A stretch of 64,000 nucleotides of DNA from Thermodesulfobacteriota bacterium (lineage in GTDB: Bacteria > Desulfobacterota > Desulfobacteria > Desulfobacterales > Desulfosudaceae), in contig JBFMDX010000003.1 in the NCBI GenBank assembly GCA_040753795.1, positions 248,001 to 312,000 of the forward strand, written 5' to 3'. The notes under the pieces were generated by a model. That model saw only the letters and a list, made by a program, of their open reading frames with translations, was not told where the DNA came from and ran no database searches. The translations under genes and the position numbers were made by a program. The stretch's first letter is position 1. Every line of letters starts with the position of its first letter. Positions 14,751 to 29,771 of this stretch are shown piece by piece.

Positions 14751-16859
14751 ATGACCAAAGAATTCAAAGCCAGACAGATATTTATCGAAGAAGCCCGGGA
14801 TGAGCTGCTGCCGGAACTGGAAAACGCCCTCCTGGAACTGGGCGGCCATCCGGATGATCCGGCGCTGATCAACCGGGTTTTCCGCGCCCTGCACACCCTC
14901 AAGGGCTCCGGCGCCATGTTCGGTTTTGACCGGCTCTCCGGACTGGCCCACGAAATGGAAACGGTCTTTGACAATGTCCGCAACGGTCTCTACCGGGTTA
15001 CCAACCCGCTGGTGGAACTGACCCTGACGGCCAAGGATCAGTTTCATCTGCTGGTTAATGATCCGGAGTCCGTTAGCGCCCAGACGATTCAGGACCTGGC
15101 CCGGGCCTTCCGGGACATGGATGCGGACAAGACACCGGCCGGCAGCGCCCAGGACGGTCGCGCGACTGCAGACAGCCCGGCCGATCCGCAGTCCTGGGCG
15201 GTCTATCACATCCGTTTCAAACCGCGGCCCGGGATTTTCAGCACCGGGACCAATCCGCTTTTCCTGCTGGATGAATTAACCGAGCTGGGCGTGACGCGCG
15301 TTATCGCCCATGCCGGCGGCATCCCCCTTCTGGAAGCCATGGACCCGGAGGCATGCTATGTCTGGTGGGATATCCTCCTGGCCACGGACCGGGGAATCAA
15401 CGCCATAAAAGACGTGTTCATATTCGTGGAAGGCGACTGCGAATTAACGATTGATGTTATTGCCGATCATGTGCAACCGGGTCATGAGTCACCGGTTTTC
15501 GAGGAACTGGGGCGGCGGCTGCTGGAGGAAGAGACCATCGGCCTGGAGACCCTGCGCCAGGCCTTTATCGACAAGATACGTTCCACGGACGGAAAAGACA
15601 TCGTTGCGGAAAACATTCAGCGGCCGGCCGCGACCGGAGGCCCGGACCGGACTTTAACCGACCGGCGTTCCGGGAAAGACCGCCGCGGCGAGCCCAGGTC
15701 CATATCCAGCATGCGGGTCCAGGCCGTCAAACTGGATCAACTGGTCAACCTGGTCGGGGAACTGGTCATCGCTCAGACCCGTCTCTCCCGGCTGGCAATT
15801 GAAAAAGACGATCCGGCCCTGGCGGAAATCGCCGAAACCATTGAACGTTTAAGCAATGACCTGCGGGAAAACACGCTGGATATCCGCATGCTGCCCATCG
15901 GCGCCAGTTTTGGAAAATTCAAGCGCGTCGTCTGGGACCTGTCGTCCCAGCGGGGGAAAACGGTGGAACTGGTCACCGAGGGCGCGGCCACTGAACTGGA
16001 CAAGACCGTTATCGAACGACTGGATGATCCCCTGGTACACCTGCTGCGGAACAGCATCGACCACGGCATTGAACCCACGGAAGAACGGCGCCGGGCGGGA
16101 AAGCCGCCCCAGGGTAAAATTATCTTCTCCGCCGAGCATTCCGGCGGGCATGTCATCATCACCATATCCGATGACGGCCGCGGCATTGACCCGGACGCCG
16201 TCAGGGCCAAAGCCGTTGAAAGAGGTCTCCTGAACCCTGACGCGACCCCGGACGAAAAAGAACTGTTCAACTTCATCTTTGAACCCGGCTTTTCCACCGC
16301 CAGCCAGGTTACCGATCTGTCCGGCCGGGGGGTCGGCATGGACGTCGTCAAGCAGAGCATCACCGCCCTGCGGGGCAAAGTAACGGTCGCCAGCGAAAAA
16401 GGACGGGGCACCACCGTTACCATGAAACTGCCCCTGACCCTGGCCATTATCGATGGTCTCCAGGTCCGCATCGGCGGGGAAAACTTCATTGTACCGCTGG
16501 CCGTGGTCAGCGAATGCCTGGAGTTGGCCGGCGGCAAAAACGGTTCCCGGGAAAACCGGCTCATCAACCTGCGGGATCAACTGGTCCCTTTTCTTAACCT
16601 GCGGGAGTGGTTTTCCATCAGCGGATCACCGCCGGGCAATGAACAGGTAGTGATTGTCTCCTCGGAAAAGGCCCTGGTCGGACTGGTCGTTGACGAGGTC
16701 ATCGGCCTGCAGCAGACGGTCATTAAAAACCTGGGCGCGGCCTACAAGGACATAAAGGGCATTTCCGGCGCCACCATCCAGGGAGACGGCAGCATTGCCC
16801 TGATCCTGGACGTGGATCTGCTGGTCCAGGAAGCGGAGGAAAGAGCCGGAACCCCTTAA
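14751..16859 (+). CDS. cheA: Chemotaxis histidine kinase CheA
   Basis: A 702-residue CheA. The N-terminal HPt domain carries phospho-acceptor His48 in [11 protein letters not shown]2-like alpha/beta region (about 145-245) precedes the dimerisation domain ([20 protein letters not shown]), the ATPase domain with N434 in [16 protein letters not shown] and GRGVGMDVV, and a C-terminal CheW-like regulatory domain. It autophosphorylates under receptor control and passes phosphate to CheY and CheB. It is followed by two receptor genes in the same orientation. Confidence 0.97.
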
Positions 16860-19031: not shown

Positions 19032-20972
19032 ATGGAATCAAAAAGCATGAATATCGGGGCCCGGATAAACCTGATCATGACCGGAATGATTGTTCTCATA
19101 TTCGTCGTGTTCGGAGCGTATGTCAATTACCTGCTTCACAAACAGATCAGGGACGCCACCAGTGAAAGAATGGTCGAGCAGGTAAACGACCTGGTTGAAG
19201 TCATCGCAATCGAACTGCAGGGCAACCGGGAAAAGATCGGCCTGTCGATGCATCTGGCCAGCAATTACTTCCAGCGGCAGGGGCAACTGGTTGAGGCCCC
19301 CGACGCCTTCGTGGAATTTACCGCCACCAACCAGTTTACCGGTGAAACCGCCGCGGCAAAGGTCAATCAGTGGTATCTTGGCGAACAGCCGGTCCAGAAC
19401 CGGTTCGAAGTAGTGGATGCCATCAGCGCCATGGGCGTCGCTACCGCCACCATCTTTCAAAAAATACCCCAGGGTTATCTGCGGATATCCACCAACGTGA
19501 AAAAAACCGACGGCAGCCGGGCCGTGGGCACTTTCATCCCCTCCAGCAGCCCGGTGGCCCAGGCCATTGACCGGGGAGAAACCTATTCCGGACGTGCCTG
19601 GGTGGTAAATGACTGGTATGTTACCGGTTACGAGCCGATCCGGATAGACAATGAAATCAAAGGGATCCTCTATGTGGGAATGCCCGAAAAAAACCTCCCC
19701 AAGATTAAGGCATTATTTAACAGCAAGAAATTCTTCCAGACGGGATTCCCCTACATGGTGGACGGGGAGGGGAAACTGATTGTCCATCCCGTCAGCGCCG
19801 GCGAGAGTGTCGCTGGAACCGACTTCTTTAAAGCCATGCTCGACCATAAGACCGGCGCCGTCGAAAAGCACACGTTTTCGTGGGAAGGAAAGAAAAAAAT
19901 TCAGTATTTTCGGTATTTCGAGCCGTTAAACGCTTTTGTGGCGGTTGAGTTTTACGCCGCTGAAATGAACAGGATCCTGAATCAAATACGTCTGATTCTA
20001 CTGATCGTCACCATCGCCGCCATTATTCTGGTGACGCTGGCGTTGCGCGCCATTGTCCGTTCCGTGGTGTCGGCTTTGAACAAGGGCGTTGTCTTCGCCA
20101 CCCGAGTGGCCGCGGGAGATTTGACCGCCACGATGGATATCCGGCGCAAGGACGAAATCGGCAATCTGGCCGGAGCGCTCAAGGAAATGGCCGAAAAGCT
20201 GAAAGCGGTCGTCACTCAAGTTCAGGAGGCAGCCAACCATGTCTCGTCCGGCGGCGAAGAGATGCGGTCCTCTTCCGAAGCACTCTCCCAGGGCGCCACG
20301 GAACAGGCCTCTCATCTGGAAGAGATTACTTCCAGCATGGAGGAGATGGGATCGAACATCAACCAGAACGCCGACAATGCCGCTGAAACCGAGAAAATCG
20401 CCCGGCAGGCGGCCGGGGATGCCGAAGAAGGCGGCCGCCAGGTGCAGAACACGGTCCGGGCCATGAAAGAAATCGCCGGCAAAATTTCCATCATCGAAGA
20501 GATCGCCCGACAGACCAACCTGCTGGCCTTAAACGCCGCCATTGAAGCGGCCCGGGCCGGAGATGCCGGAAAAGGATTTGCCGTGGTGGCGGCGGAGGTG
20601 AGAAAACTGGCTGAACGCAGCGGCATGGCGGCCAAGGAAATCGGCGCGTTGTCGGCGACCAGCGTTGACGTGGCCGAAAAGGCCGGGCAAATGCTGGAAA
20701 AAATCGTGCCCGATATCCGCAAAACCGCCGAACTGGTCCAGGAAATCAGTGCCGCTTCCAAGGAGCAGACGGCCGGCGCGTCCCAGATCAACCAGGCCAT
20801 TTCCCAACTGGACCAGGTCGTGCAGCGGAACGCCTCTTTCGCCGAAGAGGTCGCCTCCACGGCCCAGGAGCTGTCCGGTCAGGCGCAGCAGCTCCAGGAC
20901 AGCATGAGCTTTTTCAAAACAGCCGGTGATGCCGGCGCCGGATCGGGTCCGCGACCGTTGTTAACGAAATAA
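19032..20972 (+). CDS. Methyl-accepting chemotaxis protein with Cache-type sensor
   Basis: A 646-residue receptor. Membrane segment 1 is at about 12-34 and segment 2 at about 315-340. The periplasmic part fits a Cache_3/Cache_2-type domain ([72 protein letters not shown]), which in the family binds small organic acids or amino acids directly. A HAMP domain and the standard signalling hairpin follow. Unlike its upstream neighbour it ends in PRPLLTK without an aromatic tether. Confidence 0.95.
20214..20915 (+). repeat. Near-identical MCP signalling-domain segment, copy B
   Basis: Partner of 18069-18770 in direct orientation, about 2.1 kb apart. This suggests a recent tandem duplication with replacement of the sensor half, or gene conversion. 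Confidence 0.85.
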
Positions 20973-21000: not shown

Positions 21001-21507
21001 ATGAACGACACGAAAAACGCCCAGAGCAACACCTATCTTACCTTTTATCTGGATGAGGAGTTGTTCGGCCTGAATATCCAGATGGTACGTGAGGTCCTGG
21101 AATACACGCCGGTCACCCGGGTACCCATGACCGCCGATTTCATGCTCGGTGTCATCAACGTTCGCGGTCATGTGGTGCCGGTCGTCGATTTGAGGCGGAA
21201 ATTCGGATTAAACCGAACGGAGCAGACCGTCAACACCTGCATCATTATTGTGGAGATCGCTATTGAAGGCGACTCCTCGACCATGGGCGCCCTGGTAGAC
21301 GGCGTTCAGGAAGTCATGGATATCATGCCGGAGCAGATTGAAAAATCGCCCCGCCTGGGCAGCCGCATTGAAACCCGTTTCATTCAGGGCATCGGCAAGC
21401 TGACCGACCGGTTTGTCATCCTGCTGAATATCCAGTCCGCCTTTTCCCTGGATGAGCTGTCCATGATCGCCGAAATACAGCAGCAGACCGAGGAGCAGAA
21501 TGCCTGA
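21001..21507 (+). CDS. cheW: Chemotaxis adaptor CheW
   Basis: A 168-residue CheW domain: YLTFYLDEELFGLNIQMVREVLEYTPVTRVP at the start, then MLGVINVRGHVVPVVDLRRKFGL, the typical receptor-kinase coupling core. It links the receptors to CheA. AAGGAGAG upstream gives a good ribosome site, and the stop overlaps the cheR start by 8 bp. Confidence 0.96.
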   Translation: MNDTKNAQSNTYLTFYLDEELFGLNIQMVREVLEYTPVTRVPMTADFMLGVINVRGHVVPVVDLRRKFGLNRTEQTVNTCIIIVEIAIEGDSSTMGALVDGVQEVMDIMPEQIEKSPRLGSRIETRFIQGIGKLTDRFVILLNIQSAFSLDELSMIAEIQQQTEEQNA

Positions 21508-22405
21508 TCTTATGTGCGCGAATCACGGTACCGCCCTGAACACGGGCCAGGGGAAAACAGCGGAGCCCATCTGGACCCCTCCGCCGCCCATGACCAGCGG
21601 AGAATTCAAATCCATCGGCGGCTTTATCCAGTCGGAATTCGGCATTAAAATGCCGCCGGCAAAAAAAATCATGCTGCAGTCCCGCCTGACCAAACGCCTG
21701 CGGGCGATGAAGATGAGCAGTTACCGCCAGTATATGGAATACCTTTTTTCACCGGAAGGAATGGAAAAAGAGCTGCCTTACATGATCGACGCGGTCACCA
21801 CCAACAAGACCGACTTCTTCCGGGAGCAGGCACACTTTGACTTTCTCTATAACACCCTGCTGCCCCAATGGTTCCTGGCGACCGGCGGCAGGGAGGTGTT
21901 CACCGCCTGGAGCGCCGGCTGCGCCACCGGCGAAGAACCTTACAGCCTGGCCATCATGTTGAGCGAGTTTGCCAGAGTGCAGCCGTCTTTCACGTTTGAA
22001 GTCACGGCTACGGACGTCTCCCGGGAAGTGGTTGAAAAAGCCAGTCAGGCGATTTATCCGGCCAGAAGAACCGACACCATTCCCGCCGAACTGCGGAAAC
22101 GGTATCTGATGAGGAGCAGAGACCGTCAGAAACAGCTGACGCGCATCGTGCCGGAAGTCAGGAGCCGGGTGAAATTCTCTTTGCTGAACCTGATGAAAAC
22201 CTTTTCCTGCCCCCGGGAATACGATATCATCTTCTGCCGTAATGTCATCATCTATTTTGAACGGGTGGTGCAGGAAGAACTGTTCAATAAATGCTGCAAC
22301 TGTTTGAAGCACAATGGTTATCTTTTTATCGGCCATTCCGAAACCTTAAACGGCATGCGCCTGCCGCTGCGGCAGATCCGGCCGACCGTATATCAAAAAG
22401 CGTAA
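21500..22405 (+). CDS. cheR: Chemotaxis receptor methyltransferase CheR
   Basis: A 301-residue CheR. After a 30-residue proline-rich leader, the helical N-terminal domain (FIQSEFGIKMPPAKKIMLQSRLTKRLR) and the SAM-binding domain (TNKTDFFRE; FTAWSAGCATGEEPYSLAI; YDIIFCRNVIIYF; LFIGHSETL) are all present. It methylates receptor glutamates using SAM. It overlaps cheW and is followed by a receiver gene. Confidence 0.97.
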   Translation: MPDLMCANHGTALNTGQGKTAEPIWTPPPPMTSGEFKSIGGFIQSEFGIKMPPAKKIMLQSRLTKRLRAMKMSSYRQYMEYLFSPEGMEKELPYMIDAVTTNKTDFFREQAHFDFLYNTLLPQWFLATGGREVFTAWSAGCATGEEPYSLAIMLSEFARVQPSFTFEVTATDVSREVVEKASQAIYPARRTDTIPAELRKRYLMRSRDRQKQLTRIVPEVRSRVKFSLLNLMKTFSCPREYDIIFCRNVIIYFERVVQEELFNKCCNCLKHNGYLFIGHSETLNGMRLPLRQIRPTVYQKA

Positions 22406-22425
22406 GGCTTTTGCAGGAGGTAAAC

Positions 22426-22875
22426 ATGCAGAGAATACTGATCGTTGATGACAGCCCGTCCATCCGTGAGGGAATGCTCGCCATTCTGACGCCGCTGGCG
22501 GAATGCCACGTGGCCACCAACGGCCAGGAAGCGGTGGACCTGATCAAGCGCACACAGGGAAAAGGGAAATATTTCGACCTGGTAATAATGGACGTTATCA
22601 TGCCGGAAAAAGACGGCCTGACAGCCGTCAAGGAAATCCGGGCATTCGAAAAAGAACAGGGCTGGAGCGGTGACGATACCCTGACCATCATCATTGCCAC
22701 TACCATTAAGGATCCCGCCAGGATTCTGGTCGCCCAGTATGAATGCGGCGCCGACGCCTATATCGCCAAGCCCTTTACCGAAAAAACGGTCCTCCAGACC
22801 TTGCGCAACAACGGCCTGAATTCCGGTTCCGATGACATCGTCGACAACCCGAATCAGTGGAGCTTTTCCGAATGA
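22426..22875 (+). CDS. CheY-like response regulator
   Basis: A 149-residue single-domain receiver with D8-D9, phospho-acceptor D56 (LVIMDVIMP), the Thr position (ATTIKD) and the Lys in YIAKPF. It is longer than CheY, with extra residues around the third helix and a 20-residue tail. The start is set by AGGAGG five bases before the ATG. It lies between cheR and cheD, so it is a likely phosphate sink or output regulator of this CheA; a true CheY-type regulator is also encoded at 26825. Confidence 0.9.
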   Translation: MQRILIVDDSPSIREGMLAILTPLAECHVATNGQEAVDLIKRTQGKGKYFDLVIMDVIMPEKDGLTAVKEIRAFEKEQGWSGDDTLTIIIATTIKDPARILVAQYECGADAYIAKPFTEKTVLQTLRNNGLNSGSDDIVDNPNQWSFSE

Positions 22876-23432
22876 AACCTGAACCGGAAATCCTGCCTAA
22901 AAACAACGACCTGGCCGACTGGGTGAATGTGTATTTAAAACAGGGTGAATTCTATATCTCCGGCGGCAGTCCGGTTCAGGTTCGAACGGTGCTGGGGTCC
23001 TGCGTTACGGTGACCATGTACTGTCCGGTCCGTAACATCGGCGGCATCACCCATTCCCTGCTTCCCTATCCCCTGCCCAATACGGTCGACGCGCCCAATC
23101 TGACCGGCCGTTATGTCAATCTCAGTATCCGCCACGTGTTCAGCCGCATGGCCGTTCTGGGCGTCAACGTCAAAACACTGGAAGTGAAAATCTTCGGCGG
23201 CGGCCAGATGTTTTTACCGGTTCCGGGGAAACCGGTGCAGGAGGCGCTCAATATCGGACGCCGGAACGTGGAAACCGCCTTAAAGACCATCCAGGAGCTG
23301 GGATTGAATATCACCGCCACTGATGTGGGCGGCAATCATGGCAGAAAGCTGCTGTTTTTCCCTCACCGGGGAGACGTCTGGATCAAAAAAATCAACCGCA
23401 CTGTAAACCAGAAAACAGAAGGCCATGACTAA
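22872..23432 (+). CDS. cheD: Chemoreceptor glutamine deamidase CheD
   Basis: A 186-residue CheD. The catalytic cysteine lies in [12 protein letters not shown] and the histidine in [10 protein letters not shown], with the later FGGGQMF and [10 protein letters not shown] segments. It deamidates receptor glutamines and can interact with CheC-type phosphatases, none of which is seen here. ATG 22872 forms an ATGA overlap with the upstream receiver gene. Confidence 0.95.
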
Positions 23433-24546
23433 ACCTCCCATCCGGGTTCTGATAGTTGACGATTCCGCCCTGGTCCGGCAGACCCTCAAGGAAATCCTGG
23501 ACGTGGACCCGGACATCCAGGTCATGGGAACGGCCCCGGACCCCTATCAGGCGGCCAGGAAAATGAGCGCCGACATGCCGGATGTCCTGACCCTGGATAT
23601 CGAAATGCCTCGGATGGACGGCCTCACCTTTTTAGACCGGATCATGGCCCAGCACCCCATCCCCGTTATCATCTGCTCGGCGCTGACGGAAAAGAATTCG
23701 GAACTGGCACTGAAGGCCATCGAACATGGCGCGGTGGATGTCATCAATAAACCGCGGCTGGGTGTACGCCAGTTTTTTGAAGAAGCCCGCATCCGGATCA
23801 CCGACGTGGTGAAAGCCGCCGCCGGAGCCAGAATCTCGCGGCCGCCGAAGATCCCCATCCCGTCCCGGGCATACGCGGTGGAACCGAAACTGACGGCCGA
23901 CGCCATGATGCCGGGCATCAAACCGGGCCAGACCGTTTTCCAGACCACCGACAAGGTCCTGGTCGTGGGGGCCTCCACCGGCGGCACCGAGGCGCTGCGG
24001 GTGCTGCTGGAGGCCATGCCCCTGGACGCGCCGGGCATCGTGGTGGTTCAGCACATGCCCGAACACTTCACCACCGCTTTTGCCCAGCGGCTGAACGGGA
24101 TCTGCGGCATTACCGTCAAGGAAGCCGACGACGGCGACCCGGTGCTCAAGGGCCAGGCCCTGATCGCTCCCGGCAACCGGCACACCCTGCTGAAAAGAAG
24201 CGGCGCCAAGTATCTGGTCCAGGTGAAAGACGGGCCCCTGGTGTCCCGGCACCGGCCGTCGGTGGATGTACTGTTCCGGTCGGCCGCGCGCTATGCCGGC
24301 GGAAACGCCATCGGCGTCATCATGACCGGGATGGGTGATGACGGCGCCCGCGGCATGCGGGAGATGCACGATACCGGCGCCTACACCATCGCCCAGGACG
24401 AGGTATCCTGTGTTGTCTACGGCATGCCCAAGGAAGCGGTCAAAATGGGAGGAGTCGATCAGGTTCTGCCGCTGAACAAAATTGCCGCGGAAGTCATCCG
24501 CTACTACAAAAAACACACGGAATACTCGATCCAGACTGTCTCATAA
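23425..24546 (+). CDS. cheB: Chemotaxis methylesterase CheB
   Basis: A 373-residue CheB. The N-terminal receiver has D58 in [12 protein letters not shown]. The methylesterase domain has the catalytic Ser in [12 protein letters not shown], His in VVQHMPEHF and Asp in [11 protein letters not shown]. It removes methyl groups from receptors when phosphorylated by CheA. It overlaps cheD by 8 bp and is the last gene of block 1. Confidence 0.97.
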
Positions 24547-24832: not shown

Positions 24833-26746
24833 ATGAGATTTGCGGCTCTGTTAAAAAAAATATCAAAAAATCAAACGGATGACATCGATCTGAAGGAATG
24901 GATGCCGCCCGGGGGATCTCTTTGCACGGAGAGCCCTCAGCCGCAAATCCCTGTGCATGTCGACCAGACGGAAGCCGCCGAGGTTCTGGAACAGACCTTT
25001 CCCGATATAACAGCGTCCATGGACGATTTTATTGAAGGGTCGGAGGCCGATTTCATGCTGCTGGGCATCGGATTGCGGACCGTTCATGCCAACGTGACGG
25101 AACTCACCGAACTGATGCTCGGCACGGTAAAACGCATGGGTTCGGACACCAAAGGCGGTTTTCTGGACAGGGGCCGGCAGATCCTGAACGAATCCATGGC
25201 CGATATTCAAACCCGCCAGAATGAGGTCCGGGCCAACCTGACTCGTATCAACGCCCTGATGGGCGACATTGAAAAACTGCACACGACCAGCAAACTGATA
25301 AAAAAATTCGCTCAATCGCTTAAAACCGTCGCCCTGACTATGCTGGTGGAAAACGCCCGCACCATCGACCTGTCCGTCAACATCTTTTCCGACGTCGCCC
25401 TGGAGATCAAAGACCTTTCGGTCAATATCAGCGGCATTGCCCATGACGTTTATAAAAACGTGGAAAAAGCCCGGGAAGTCCACCGCATCACCCGGGAAGA
25501 GATATCCGACGGCATCAAGCGACTGGAAACCCTCACCGACCAGATCCGGACGACGGTCCAGGAATCAACCCATGACACCGAAGAACTAATGCGTTTTTCC
25601 GTCGACACCATTGAAGAGTCCGGGAGGCGCTCCCGGGAAATTTCCCGGCAGGTGGCTGAAATCGTGGTCGGTGTTCAGTTCCACGACAACATGAAGCAGC
25701 GGCTGGTGAAAATCATCGAAATTCTCAACGCCATCCTGACGGCCATGGAAAGGGCCCCTGATTCAACTTCACCGGAAGGACGGGCCGACCGCGTCACCGT
25801 AGCCGCGGTCATCCGGGAACTGGTCGACAGGCTGGATGAAATAAACAAGGAGCTCAACGGCGTTTATGATAAAAACAGGACGGCCTTGAAAAGGATTCAC
25901 GGCGAGGTAAACGACCTGCTCCAGGGCCTCCGGCCCATCACTTCCGACGAACGGGATCTGCGGGCGGTCACCTTCATGAACGACCCCTTCTCCCACCTGA
26001 AGGACGCCCTGCGTCAGTTGCACGACCTGCTGAACCGGGGGGAGACATTCTACCGCCAGATTCAGGAAGCGGCCGATCAGGTCGCCGATATCGCCTCCGA
26101 CCTGTCCAAGCTCCTGGGGCTGGTCCGCAGCATCAGCGCCAATACCCACAACAAGGCCATCAATTCCATTATCGCGGCCAACCGCCAGGGAGAAAAAGGC
26201 GGCGCCCTCAAGCTGCTGGCCCAGGCCATGAATGAGCTGGCCACGAAATCCGACGGGTTTTCCGGTGAGGTCGAAAACATCATCACCTCCATTATCAGTT
26301 CCGCCGAAGAAATCAGCCGCAAAGAGACAACGGCGCCGGCAGGCCCGGGAGAAGATGACTTTTCCATCACCCGCCTGGAAAAGATCATGAATGACATATC
26401 CTTAGAATACGAACGGTTCAGGGACAACTCCCTGGCCGCCTACGAACGCGCCAAAGATCTGAAAAAAGCTACGGACACGACATTGACCAGCCTGGATTTC
26501 TTCAAGGGCCTGTCACAGAGGATTGATGAATTCCGCGACCGGCTGGCCACTCTGACGGTCCGGAACAGCCTTCAGGACATTCTTATCGCGGCGGATGTCA
26601 CCGACCGGGGCCACGTTCCTGGAAAACACACCGCCGAGCAGAAAGACAACATCATCCTCTTTGAAGAGGCCCGACGGTCGATCATGGGAAACGGTTATGA
26701 CGCCTCCGGCCATGAAGAAATGGACAGCAACGTGGAGCTTTTTTAG
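24833..26746 (+). CDS. Soluble duplicated helical protein with MCP-tip-like and CheZ-like motifs
   Basis: A 637-residue, almost wholly helical protein without membrane segments. I know no named family for it. Two related halves are visible. Half 1 has VALTMLVENAR (166-176), like a degenerate MCP hairpin tip, and about 110 residues later QFHDNMKQRL with D285-x3-Q289. Half 2 has the closer tip match AINSIIAANRQGEKGGALKL (R451) and FFKGLSQRI, where K558 replaces the Asp before Q562. The D-x3-Q spacing is that of the CheZ phosphatase residues (Asp143/Gln147 in E. coli). The C-terminus is NVELF, resembling the TVEVF end of the protein encoded at 28812. It may be a CheY phosphatase or a cytoplasmic receptor mimic. 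It is the first gene after the second sigma-54 promoter. Confidence 0.75.
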   Translation: MRFAALLKKISKNQTDDIDLKEWMPPGGSLCTESPQPQIPVHVDQTEAAEVLEQTFPDITASMDDFIEGSEADFMLLGIGLRTVHANVTELTELMLGTVKRMGSDTKGGFLDRGRQILNESMADIQTRQNEVRANLTRINALMGDIEKLHTTSKLIKKFAQSLKTVALTMLVENARTIDLSVNIFSDVALEIKDLSVNISGIAHDVYKNVEKAREVHRITREEISDGIKRLETLTDQIRTTVQESTHDTEELMRFSVDTIEESGRRSREISRQVAEIVVGVQFHDNMKQRLVKIIEILNAILTAMERAPDSTSPEGRADRVTVAAVIRELVDRLDEINKELNGVYDKNRTALKRIHGEVNDLLQGLRPITSDERDLRAVTFMNDPFSHLKDALRQLHDLLNRGETFYRQIQEAADQVADIASDLSKLLGLVRSISANTHNKAINSIIAANRQGEKGGALKLLAQAMNELATKSDGFSGEVENIITSIISSAEEISRKETTAPAGPGEDDFSITRLEKIMNDISLEYERFRDNSLAAYERAKDLKKATDTTLTSLDFFKGLSQRIDEFRDRLATLTVRNSLQDILIAADVTDRGHVPGKHTAEQKDNIILFEEARRSIMGNGYDASGHEEMDSNVELF

Positions 26747-26824
26747 CGAGACGATAATGATCGCCTGACGGATGACAGGATTCTTACGGTGATCATACCG
26801 AATTCGATAGGGAGAGAATGGCAG

Positions 26825-27196
26825 ATGGGTCAGACAATTATGGTGGTGGATGATTCAACCAGCGTCCGGAAAATGGTTGCCTTTACCCTGGAGAACGCCG
26901 GTTACAAGGTGCTGGAAGCCGAAAACGGCATGGACGCGCTGGAGAAATTAAACGGGGCGCAGGTCAACATGTTCATCGTGGATTTGAACATGCCGCATGT
27001 GGATGGATTCGAGTTGACCCGCTCCGTGCGCGCCATGCAGGAATACCGGTTTACCCCCATTGTCATGCTCACGACGGAGTCTCTGGAGGCAAAAAAAAGG
27101 GAGGGAAAAGCCGCCGGCGCCACCGGCTGGATTACCAAGCCGTTTAAACCGGACCAGTTGATCGGCGTGGTCAAAAAAGTCATGCCCCATAATTAA
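26825..27196 (+). CDS. cheY: Chemotaxis response regulator CheY
   Basis: A 123-residue stand-alone receiver: D9-D10, phospho-acceptor D53 (FIVDLNMPHVDG), LTTES and the ITKPFKPDQL lysine. Length and composition fit CheY, the diffusible output of CheA. GGGAGA lies about ten bases before the ATG. It sits between two proteins with CheZ-like motifs. Confidence 0.93.
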   Translation: MGQTIMVVDDSTSVRKMVAFTLENAGYKVLEAENGMDALEKLNGAQVNMFIVDLNMPHVDGFELTRSVRAMQEYRFTPIVMLTTESLEAKKREGKAAGATGWITKPFKPDQLIGVVKKVMPHN

Positions 27197-27259: not shown

Positions 27260-28888
27260 ATGCGATCCGAGATATCCTCCATACTGATCATTGACGACAA
27301 AGAAACCGGTACCGGCTTGATGAAGGCGGCCCTGGAGAGTTTGGACTGGTCGGTGGTCGAAATCAATGATGCCCGCCAGGGCCTGAACATGGTTTTTGAA
27401 ATAGACCCGGACATCATCTTCCTGGCCGTTGAGGGAGACGGATATTACTGGCCCCAGATCCTGTCGCAGATATCCAGAAAAGCGCCGGACCGTCCGGTCA
27501 TCACCTTCTTTACCGGAAAACCCGTCATGGATGACATCAGCCTCTCGTTTCAGATGGGCGCCTTTGACTGCCTTTCGTTTTCACCGGCCGCCGCCCTCGA
27601 CCTGGGTCAAACCGTCAACCGTGCCCTGAAGGAAGCCCGGCGTCGCCGCCGGGAGCGGACGGCCCGGGAGCGTTTTGAAAAATCTTTGCGCGAATCGGAA
27701 CAGACCATCGCCCGCCTGCTGTCAGAACTCCAGACAACCAGAAAATCGCTGGCGGACGAGCAGAACCGGCGGTTATGCGCGGAACAGGCTGCCCGGCAGA
27801 ACCAGCAGACCTTTCAGATCATGTTCGAAAACACCCGCGATGCCATCATCCATTTAAACCGGGACGGATTTGTGGTCAACACCAACGGTACCGTCCTGGA
27901 CGTCTTCGGCCTGAGACCCGACGAAGTAATGGGCAAGGATTTGAGCGGCTACGAATTCCTGGGATGCGATTACCGGCAGGCACTGGAACTTTATAAAAAC
28001 GCCCCGTCGGACGTTCCTTTCCCCGCTTTTGAAGTGGAGGCGTTTCACAAAAACGGGCATAAAATCTATATCGAAACCCAGGCCAAACAGATGATAACCG
28101 ACAACGCCTGCGACGGTATCATCAATATCATCCGGGACATCACCCCCCAGAAAAGGCTGGAAAACACAAAAAACGCCACCATCCTGGGGCTGGCCAAACT
28201 GGCGGAATCCAGAGACGACAGCACCGGCCGCCACCTGGAACGTGTTCGGGAATATGCGCGGCTGATCACCCAGGCCATCAGCCGGCTGCCCAAATACGCC
28301 CGCTATATTACCCCGGCTTACATCAAGGATATTTACCTCTCATCCATCCTGCACGATATCGGCAAGGTCAGTATCCCGGACGCGATTCTGCTCAAGCCGG
28401 GACGTCTTAGCCCGGAAGAATTCGATATCATTAAACAGCACACGCTGGTCGGCGGAGACGCGCTGGCGGCCGTGGACGCGGAACTAAAGGAACAGTCGTT
28501 CCTGACGCTGGGCAAGGAAATCGCCTATTACCACCACGAATCATGGAACGGCCGCGGATACCCCAGAGGGTTGGAGGGTGAAGAGATCCCCCTGTCGGCG
28601 CGGATCGTCGCCCTGGCGGACGTCTATGACGCCCTGACGACCAGACGGATATACAAGGACGCCTATTCCCACGAGGAGTCGGCGGCGATTATCCTGGAGG
28701 AGAGGGGCCAAAAATTCGATCCGGATATTGTCGATGCCTTTGGCGCCAGCCTGGAGGAGTTTGACAGAGTCCGCCGCAGGATAGACAGCAGAGACAAAGG
28801 ATGCCGTTTCAATGAATACACCCATCAACCAGGAAAATCCTATGCCAGACAGGAAAAGACCTTCCGACGCACACAAACCCGACCTTGA
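27260..28888 (+). CDS. Pseudo-receiver/PAS/HD-GYP phosphodiesterase
   Basis: A 542-residue protein. Residues 1-130 form a receiver that keeps D12-D13 but has Ala56 where the phospho-Asp belongs (IIFLAVEGDG) and Phe in place of the usual KP lysine, so it is probably not phosphorylated. A charged coiled coil (130-185) and a PAS domain (190-300) follow. The HD-GYP domain has H365-D366 in LHDIGKVSIPD, HHESWNGRGYP with the GYP triplet at 433-435, and ADVYDAL. HD-GYP enzymes hydrolyse cyclic di-GMP. The PAS domain may therefore be the real input. It overlaps the next gene by up to 77 bp. Confidence 0.88.
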   Translation: MRSEISSILIIDDKETGTGLMKAALESLDWSVVEINDARQGLNMVFEIDPDIIFLAVEGDGYYWPQILSQISRKAPDRPVITFFTGKPVMDDISLSFQMGAFDCLSFSPAAALDLGQTVNRALKEARRRRRERTARERFEKSLRESEQTIARLLSELQTTRKSLADEQNRRLCAEQAARQNQQTFQIMFENTRDAIIHLNRDGFVVNTNGTVLDVFGLRPDEVMGKDLSGYEFLGCDYRQALELYKNAPSDVPFPAFEVEAFHKNGHKIYIETQAKQMITDNACDGIINIIRDITPQKRLENTKNATILGLAKLAESRDDSTGRHLERVREYARLITQAISRLPKYARYITPAYIKDIYLSSILHDIGKVSIPDAILLKPGRLSPEEFDIIKQHTLVGGDALAAVDAELKEQSFLTLGKEIAYYHHESWNGRGYPRGLEGEEIPLSARIVALADVYDALTTRRIYKDAYSHEESAAIILEERGQKFDPDIVDAFGASLEEFDRVRRRIDSRDKGCRFNEYTHQPGKSYARQEKTFRRTQTRP

Positions 28889-29447: not shown

Positions 29448-29771
29448 ATGACAGCCGATGATCATCAGGACAGACCCGTCCAGCCGTCAGGGGAAGACTG
29501 GGTTAAAAAAAGGCATCATCCGAGAAAGAATCTCAGGTTGTGCGTGACCATGGCCCACGGGCAGAAGACCGGGGAGCATCACGCGCGCGATATCAGTCTG
29601 GGAGGCATTTTCGTGGAAACCAGAGAAAAGCTGTCTCTGGGACAGGAGGTCCGGATCACGCTTCCCTTTTCCAATCAGAATCGTCAGATCAAAATGAACG
29701 GCAAAGTCGTCCGGGTAACCGAGGAGGGCGTCGGCGTTCAGTTTGATATCCTCGATATTGATATCGCCTGA
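29448..29771 (+). CDS. PilZ-domain cyclic di-GMP-binding protein
   Basis: A 107-residue single PilZ domain with the two ligand motifs: R-x3-R in KKRHHPRKNLRL and D-x-S-x2-G in ARDISLGGIFVET. It then ends GVGVQFDILD, as usual. It binds cyclic di-GMP and regulates a partner by contact. As the last gene of block 2, behind an HD-GYP gene, it points to a cyclic di-GMP linked output. Its stop is 12 bp from the stop of the convergent DnaJ-like gene. Confidence 0.9.
   Translation: MTADDHQDRPVQPSGEDWVKKRHHPRKNLRLCVTMAHGQKTGEHHARDISLGGIFVETREKLSLGQEVRITLPFSNQNRQIKMNGKVVRVTEEGVGVQFDILDIDIA

Follow-up and report, generated by a model that had tools for sequence, protein, structure and literature searches.

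P0001, the 637-aa product of the gene at 24833..26746 (+ strand) of the window, i.e. the 64,000-nucleotide stretch of DNA analyzed here, belongs to a family (termed here FAM) whose sequences combine a duplicated receptor-like hairpin with a single CheZ-type DxxxQ motif, an architecture that is family-wide. We propose that P0001 is probably a soluble CheY-P phosphatase, in which CheZ chemistry would operate on a duplicated receptor scaffold with the help of a C-terminal docking peptide. More tentatively, FAM may constitute a new class of CheY-P phosphatases that originated inside a duplicated chemoreceptor, with one hairpin acting as a CheZ-like enzyme, the other as an array anchor, and a recurring DNVELF peptide, distributed over several phyla, flagellated or not; if this is true, signal termination would be built into a receptor mimic. 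The initial annotation, which knew of no described family of this design, agrees with our literature search: no such description was found in the papers searched, a set that lay mostly outside the subscription literature.

Tandem chemoreceptor-type hairpins

The alignment of 39 FAM homologs (A1) was converted into a profile and cut into halves for comparisons. The internal similarity, which the initial annotation had proposed to check by profile alignment, is significant: the two halves, of ~265 residues each (44-312 and 318-580), are homologous with P 98% and E 2.6e-13 over 253 columns, as compared to 8% for the reversed-sequence control. The alignment pairs R176 with R451 (tip with tip), Q289 with Q562, and D285 with K558, so the Arg176/Arg451 and Gln289/Gln562 correspondences noticed earlier are borne out. 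Against a chemoreceptor (MCP) profile, half 1 scores P 96.5% (reversed control 4%) and half 2 P 98.4% (reversed control 0.2%). The Pfam MCPsignal domain (PF00015) is detected in P0001 at residues 402-522 (39.9 bits vs the cut-off of 34.6, E 5e-10) and recognized in 39/39 FAM members at E <= 0.01, and residues 315-573 match the chemoreceptor 2ch7 from T. maritima with E 8e-18, in a profile match that covers the whole cytoplasmic domain. At the level of sequence, both halves of P0001 are thus related to the chemoreceptor signaling hairpin, the second one unmistakably, and a hairpin of the chemoreceptor type has been duplicated.

Structure prediction, also proposed earlier as a check, yielded an AlphaFold2 model of modest quality (pLDDT 77, pTM 0.57) with two long antiparallel hairpins, whose tips fall at ~178 (177-179) and ~454; a Foldseek search with this model revealed only elongated-helix similarity, with chemoreceptors among the best matches. 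Hairpin 1 (residues 45-307; 24965..25753, +) is a degenerate receptor hairpin, in which the tip segment (residues 169-185; 25337..25387, +) retains the receptor-tip residues E173, R176 and F185. Hairpin 2 (residues 318-580; 25784..26572, +) resembles the receptor signaling domain, lacks the CheZ site, and keeps N444, G453 and G456, while the position of R451 is occupied mostly by His across FAM. The tip residues, including the tip charges, are changed in both halves relative to receptors. Hairpin 2 is followed by a segment R-Y-T-M-x-x-E-R, strongly conserved in the relatives and degenerate in P0001 (KHTAEQKD, residues 598-605, 26624-26647).

FAM shares with the MCP signaling domain (PF00015) a hairpin with a recognizable tip, and its second half aligns over the whole cytoplasmic hairpin of the receptor. 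However, FAM differs from MCPs in having two tandem hairpins, altered tip residues, a DxxxQ site, and no aromatic CheR pentapeptide, as well as in the absence of any segment resembling a membrane helix (the maximal 19-residue hydropathy of P0001 is 1.04, vs 2.82 for the neighboring MCP), in agreement with the earlier description of a soluble protein. P0001 is therefore not an ordinary receptor.

A single CheZ-type DxxxQ motif

The return helix of hairpin 1 carries the motif Q282-F-H-D285-N-M-K-Q289-R (25676..25702, +), which we predict to be catalytic based on its invariance and on the alignment with the DxxxQ motif of E. coli CheZ. H284-D285-xxx-Q289 is also reminiscent of the H-box of HisKA_3. 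The conservation of D285 and Q289 among homologs, on which the initial annotation had made its proposal depend, was analyzed in 110 distinct FAM sequences with a mean column identity of ~24%: Q282, D285 and Q289 are invariant (110/110), and E71, F74, G78, V278 and H284 nearly never vary, the last being His in 103/110 sequences and Gln or Ser in 7/110. Conversely, the columns of K558 and Q562, which form the degenerate counterpart of the motif in the second half (26498..26521, +), rank 209th and 316th in conservation. Since these counterparts are not conserved, each chain has one CheZ-like site and not two. Hence, of the two copies of a CheZ-like unit described earlier, the duplication of the receptor-like hairpin stands and applies to the whole family, while the motif is conserved in the first copy only.

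The near-invariant E71-F74-G78 patch is located on the first helix of hairpin 1 (25043..25066, +). The sums 71+285, 74+282 and 78+278 each equal 356, i.e. twice the tip position of 178, which suggests that E71, F74 and G78 on the outgoing helix would face D285, Q282 and V278, respectively, across the hairpin; this pairing by register is approximate, given the break predicted at 104-109.

P0001 exhibits no match to the Pfam CheZ family (PF04344, cut-off 30.7 bits), and the model matches 5/39 FAM members, all below the cut-off (the best being L062, with 22.4 bits and E 1.3e-4), with E-values that spurious coiled-coil families equal or surpass. The endpoints of the L062 match place the Asp at position ~129-130 of the CheZ model, i.e. 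at the place of D143 in E. coli CheZ, and direct profile alignment (hhalign) pairs D285/Q289 with D143/Q147 of the E. coli protein; this alignment is statistically weak, with a probability of only 3% for half 1 against six aligned CheZ sequences. FAM resembles CheZ in having a helical hairpin whose second helix bears F-x-D-x3-Q, a flexible linker, a C-terminal peptide, and a location of the gene beside cheY. On the other hand, FAM proteins are about three times larger, their scaffold is a tandem receptor hairpin, and a GDNVELF tail stands in place of the C-terminal helix of CheZ. In CheZ the AxxFQ sequence directly precedes the DxxxQ motif (PMC7750401), whereas FAM has Q at -3 and H at -1 instead, most members having QFHD and a few FQD. 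Because FAM falls below the Pfam cut-off and lacks the AxxFQ signature, we do not file it as CheZ, but regard it as a putative member of the DxxxQ auxiliary phosphatases, with a predicted mode of action like that of CheZ. Pfam recognizes FAM as an MCP, and its CheZ-type active-site signature is perfect.

The C-terminal peptide and a second DxxxQ protein

P0001 ends with D-S-N-V-E-L-F-COOH (26723..26743, +), a putative CheY docking peptide. In nearly every FAM member a variable acidic linker leads to a terminal [GD]-D-N-[VI]-E-L-F-COOH, and in the set obtained from the protein search N633 and F637 show no variation, and E635 and L636 almost none; the conservation of the tail was not counted from the named-genome set, because the C-terminal motif served as a pattern in that alignment scan. 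The tails of two members (L079 and L070) contain additional internal copies of [DN]IELF, as in a repeated short linear motif. Our literature search found no paper on the DNVELF peptide.

The same operon encodes another DxxxQ protein, P0002 (28812..29396, +; 194 aa), which contains the sequence FQFYDKMTQRL and the C-terminal NTVEVF, and whose relatives end in NVELF. It lacks the receptor hairpin and is otherwise unrelated to P0001; half 1 matches the P0002-family profile with P 94.9% over 41 residues around the DxxxQ motif. P0002 has matches in 11/194 genomes of the order. No Pfam or NCBIfam family was matched by its sequence, and a Foldseek search revealed nothing significant, as its model is weak (pLDDT 64). 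P0002 is likely another small protein of the CheZ-like type. A search of 11 genomes with the pattern N[VI]ExF-stop retrieved ORFs of the FAM and P0002 families, plus one short doubtful ORF. The co-occurrence of the tail and the DxxxQ motif in two otherwise unrelated proteins suggests that the function of DxxxQ involves the tail. The initial annotation had overlooked both the conserved peptide and P0002.

The chemosensory operon and its host

The genes around P0001 form a complete chemosensory operon on the + strand: CheA (14751..16859), an MCP ending in EFERY, a CheR pentapeptide of the class-34H type according to the motif criterion of PMC2577667 (16910..18985), a Cache-domain MCP (19032..20972), CheW (21001..21507), CheR (21500..22405), a CheY-like receiver protein (22291..22875), CheD (22857..23432) and CheB (23425..24546) upstream of P0001, and CheY (26789..27196), a Receiver-PAS-HD-GYP protein (27260..28888), P0002, and a PilZ-domain protein (29448..29771) downstream of it. 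CheY consists of a single receiver domain (Response_reg, E 1.7e-26) and retains the acidic pair, D65, T95 and K117. A PAS histidine kinase and a sigma-54-dependent response regulator are encoded 5' of the operon.

The host genome (G000) has no CheZ match, and contains one CheX and one CheC-motif gene, both outside the operon; the CheC-motif protein (L040, G000:C27:24316-24423) adjoins a separate receiver protein, distant from the che operon. No FliM was found in this genome, which is 99.8% complete and has a full che operon, and its contig 2 carries a PilT/PilU-like gene pair. With FliM absent and PilT present, the pathway probably has an output other than a flagellum in this host, and it probably drives pilus or surface motility.

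Predicted mechanism and alternative explanations

In the mechanism we propose, the QxHDxxxQ site on the return helix of copy 1 would lie far from the tip, and D285 and Q289 would enter the active site of CheY and orient the water for attack, following the precedent of CheZ, CheT and HisKA_3 kinases; this role is suggested by the invariance of both residues, by the alignment, and by precedent. Copy 2, with its receptor-like tip and retained glycines, may position the enzyme within or close to the CheA/CheW array. CheY would be captured by the acidic, disordered tail with its terminal DNVELF-COOH, much as by the C-terminal helix of CheZ, whose C-terminus binds CheY (PMC7750401); here the argument is that P0001 and P0002, otherwise unrelated, both combine the tail with DxxxQ. 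The likely substrate is the product of the adjacent cheY gene. The constant cheY neighborhood and the lack of a CheZ match in the host also speak for this mechanism, whereas the weak profile similarity to CheZ, the CheX and CheC-motif genes of the host, the co-occurrence of FAM with CheZ in two genomes, and the modest AlphaFold2 model count against it. If active, FAM would represent a phosphatase evolved from a receptor, and would offer a short docking peptide.

The nearest precedent in kind is CheT of Sinorhizobium meliloti, a DxxxQ protein encoded in a che operon and reported to be a CheY-P phosphatase (PMC12654446). Like FAM, CheT contains DxxxQ; its sequence displays no significant homology with chemotaxis proteins known so far (PMC12654446). 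As compared by description, it differs from FAM in that neither a duplicated receptor scaffold nor a DNVELF tail is described for it. Phosphatases of the CheC/CheX/FliY type would share with FAM the role in dephosphorylation of CheY-P, but their motif is ExxN rather than DxxxQ, and P0001 exhibits no match to those families.

It is unlikely that P0001 is instead a pseudo-receptor, i.e. a scaffold that docks in CheA/CheW arrays and whose tail holds CheY or CheY-P without hydrolysis, with DxxxQ serving as a binding surface. Such a role would account for the kinship of both halves with receptor hairpins, the presence of MCPsignal in all members tested, and the retention of N444, G453 and G456; however, both canonical catalytic residues, and not one alone, are invariant in 110 sequences, the motif and the tail recur on P0002 in the absence of a receptor hairpin, and the tip residues are changed in both halves. 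The phosphatase could also act on a different receiver, and the operon does encode several such proteins (CheB, the receiver protein at 22291, and the HD-GYP receiver at 27260), but we regard this as quite unlikely, given that the single-domain CheY is the sole constant neighbor across the relatives.

We find it very doubtful that P0001 is an adaptation factor, in which the NVELF tail would be a CheR/CheB tether similar to NWETF and the protein would serve receptor methylation. The position of the pentapeptide at the C-terminus, its N-x-E-x-F resemblance, and the report that CheT, another DxxxQ protein, binds CheR in a CheT-CheR complex (PMC12654446) speak in favor of this role. Nonetheless, the known CheR tethers, found in some MCPs only, require an aromatic second residue (xWxxF or xF/YxxF/Y; PMC2577667), while NVELF contains Val/Ile at this position and does not conform to either form; moreover, the MCP of the operon already carries the tether EFERY, and the tail is present also on P0002, which has no receptor helices. 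Finally, HisKA_3-like phosphotransfer with H284 as the phospho-accepting histidine is hardly credible: in HisKA_3 (e.g. NarX) the DxxxQ, whose Asp and Gln serve phosphatase activity, does adjoin a conserved His (PMC3510030), and FAM shares the HDxxxQ signature with the DHp domain of these proteins, but in FAM the His varies (Gln/Ser in 7/110, and Tyr in P0002) while Asp and Gln never do, there is no kinase domain, and neither HisKA_3 nor an ATPase domain is among the listed Pfam matches of FAM members.

Phyletic distribution and genomic neighborhood

According to the HMM census, full-length FAM homologs are present in 44/194 genomes of the order, and matches at E 1e-20, some of them partial, were found in 47/297 genomes of the phylum. 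A scan of a collection of named genomes with the single P0001 sequence gave no match, while the scan with the alignment succeeded; the named loci include Desulfoluna, Desulfosarcina, Desulfatitalea, Desulfomicrobium, Geomonas propionica, Nitrospirota and Acidobacteriota. Genomic neighborhood analysis revealed cheY as the next downstream che gene in 35/39 FAM loci and in 24/27 loci of the HMM-search set, neither of which was selected by the C-terminal tail, and cheY is usually followed by cheA. In many relatives (including L049, L060 and L193) a gene for a STAS-domain protein lies in the ~350-bp gap between the FAM gene and cheY; it is absent from that position in the window.

Geobacter and other delta-proteobacteria have been described as devoid of cheZ, and a "CheZ-independent signaling mechanism" was inferred there (PMC2577667). 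In such genomes (Geomonas, Desulfobacterales, Syntrophobacteraceae) FAM sits between che genes, and it may be the missing off-switch for CheY-P in bacteria that are believed to have no CheZ. An active FAM would fill a gap in signal termination in many chemosensory systems, non-flagellar ones among them.

FliM was lacking in 22/40 FAM carrier genomes of the first search, and no association between FAM and FliM was seen (18/40 vs 90/154, p 0.15). We also dropped the idea of mutual exclusion between FAM and CheZ, as the HMM census revealed FAM in 2/14 genomes with an above-cut-off CheZ (G040 and G181). Some FAM copies are interrupted or split in frame (G063:C183, L153 (L077)), and are probably pseudogenes or assembly errors. 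One member (L135) comes from a MAG labeled as Lentisphaerae, possibly as a result of mis-binning.
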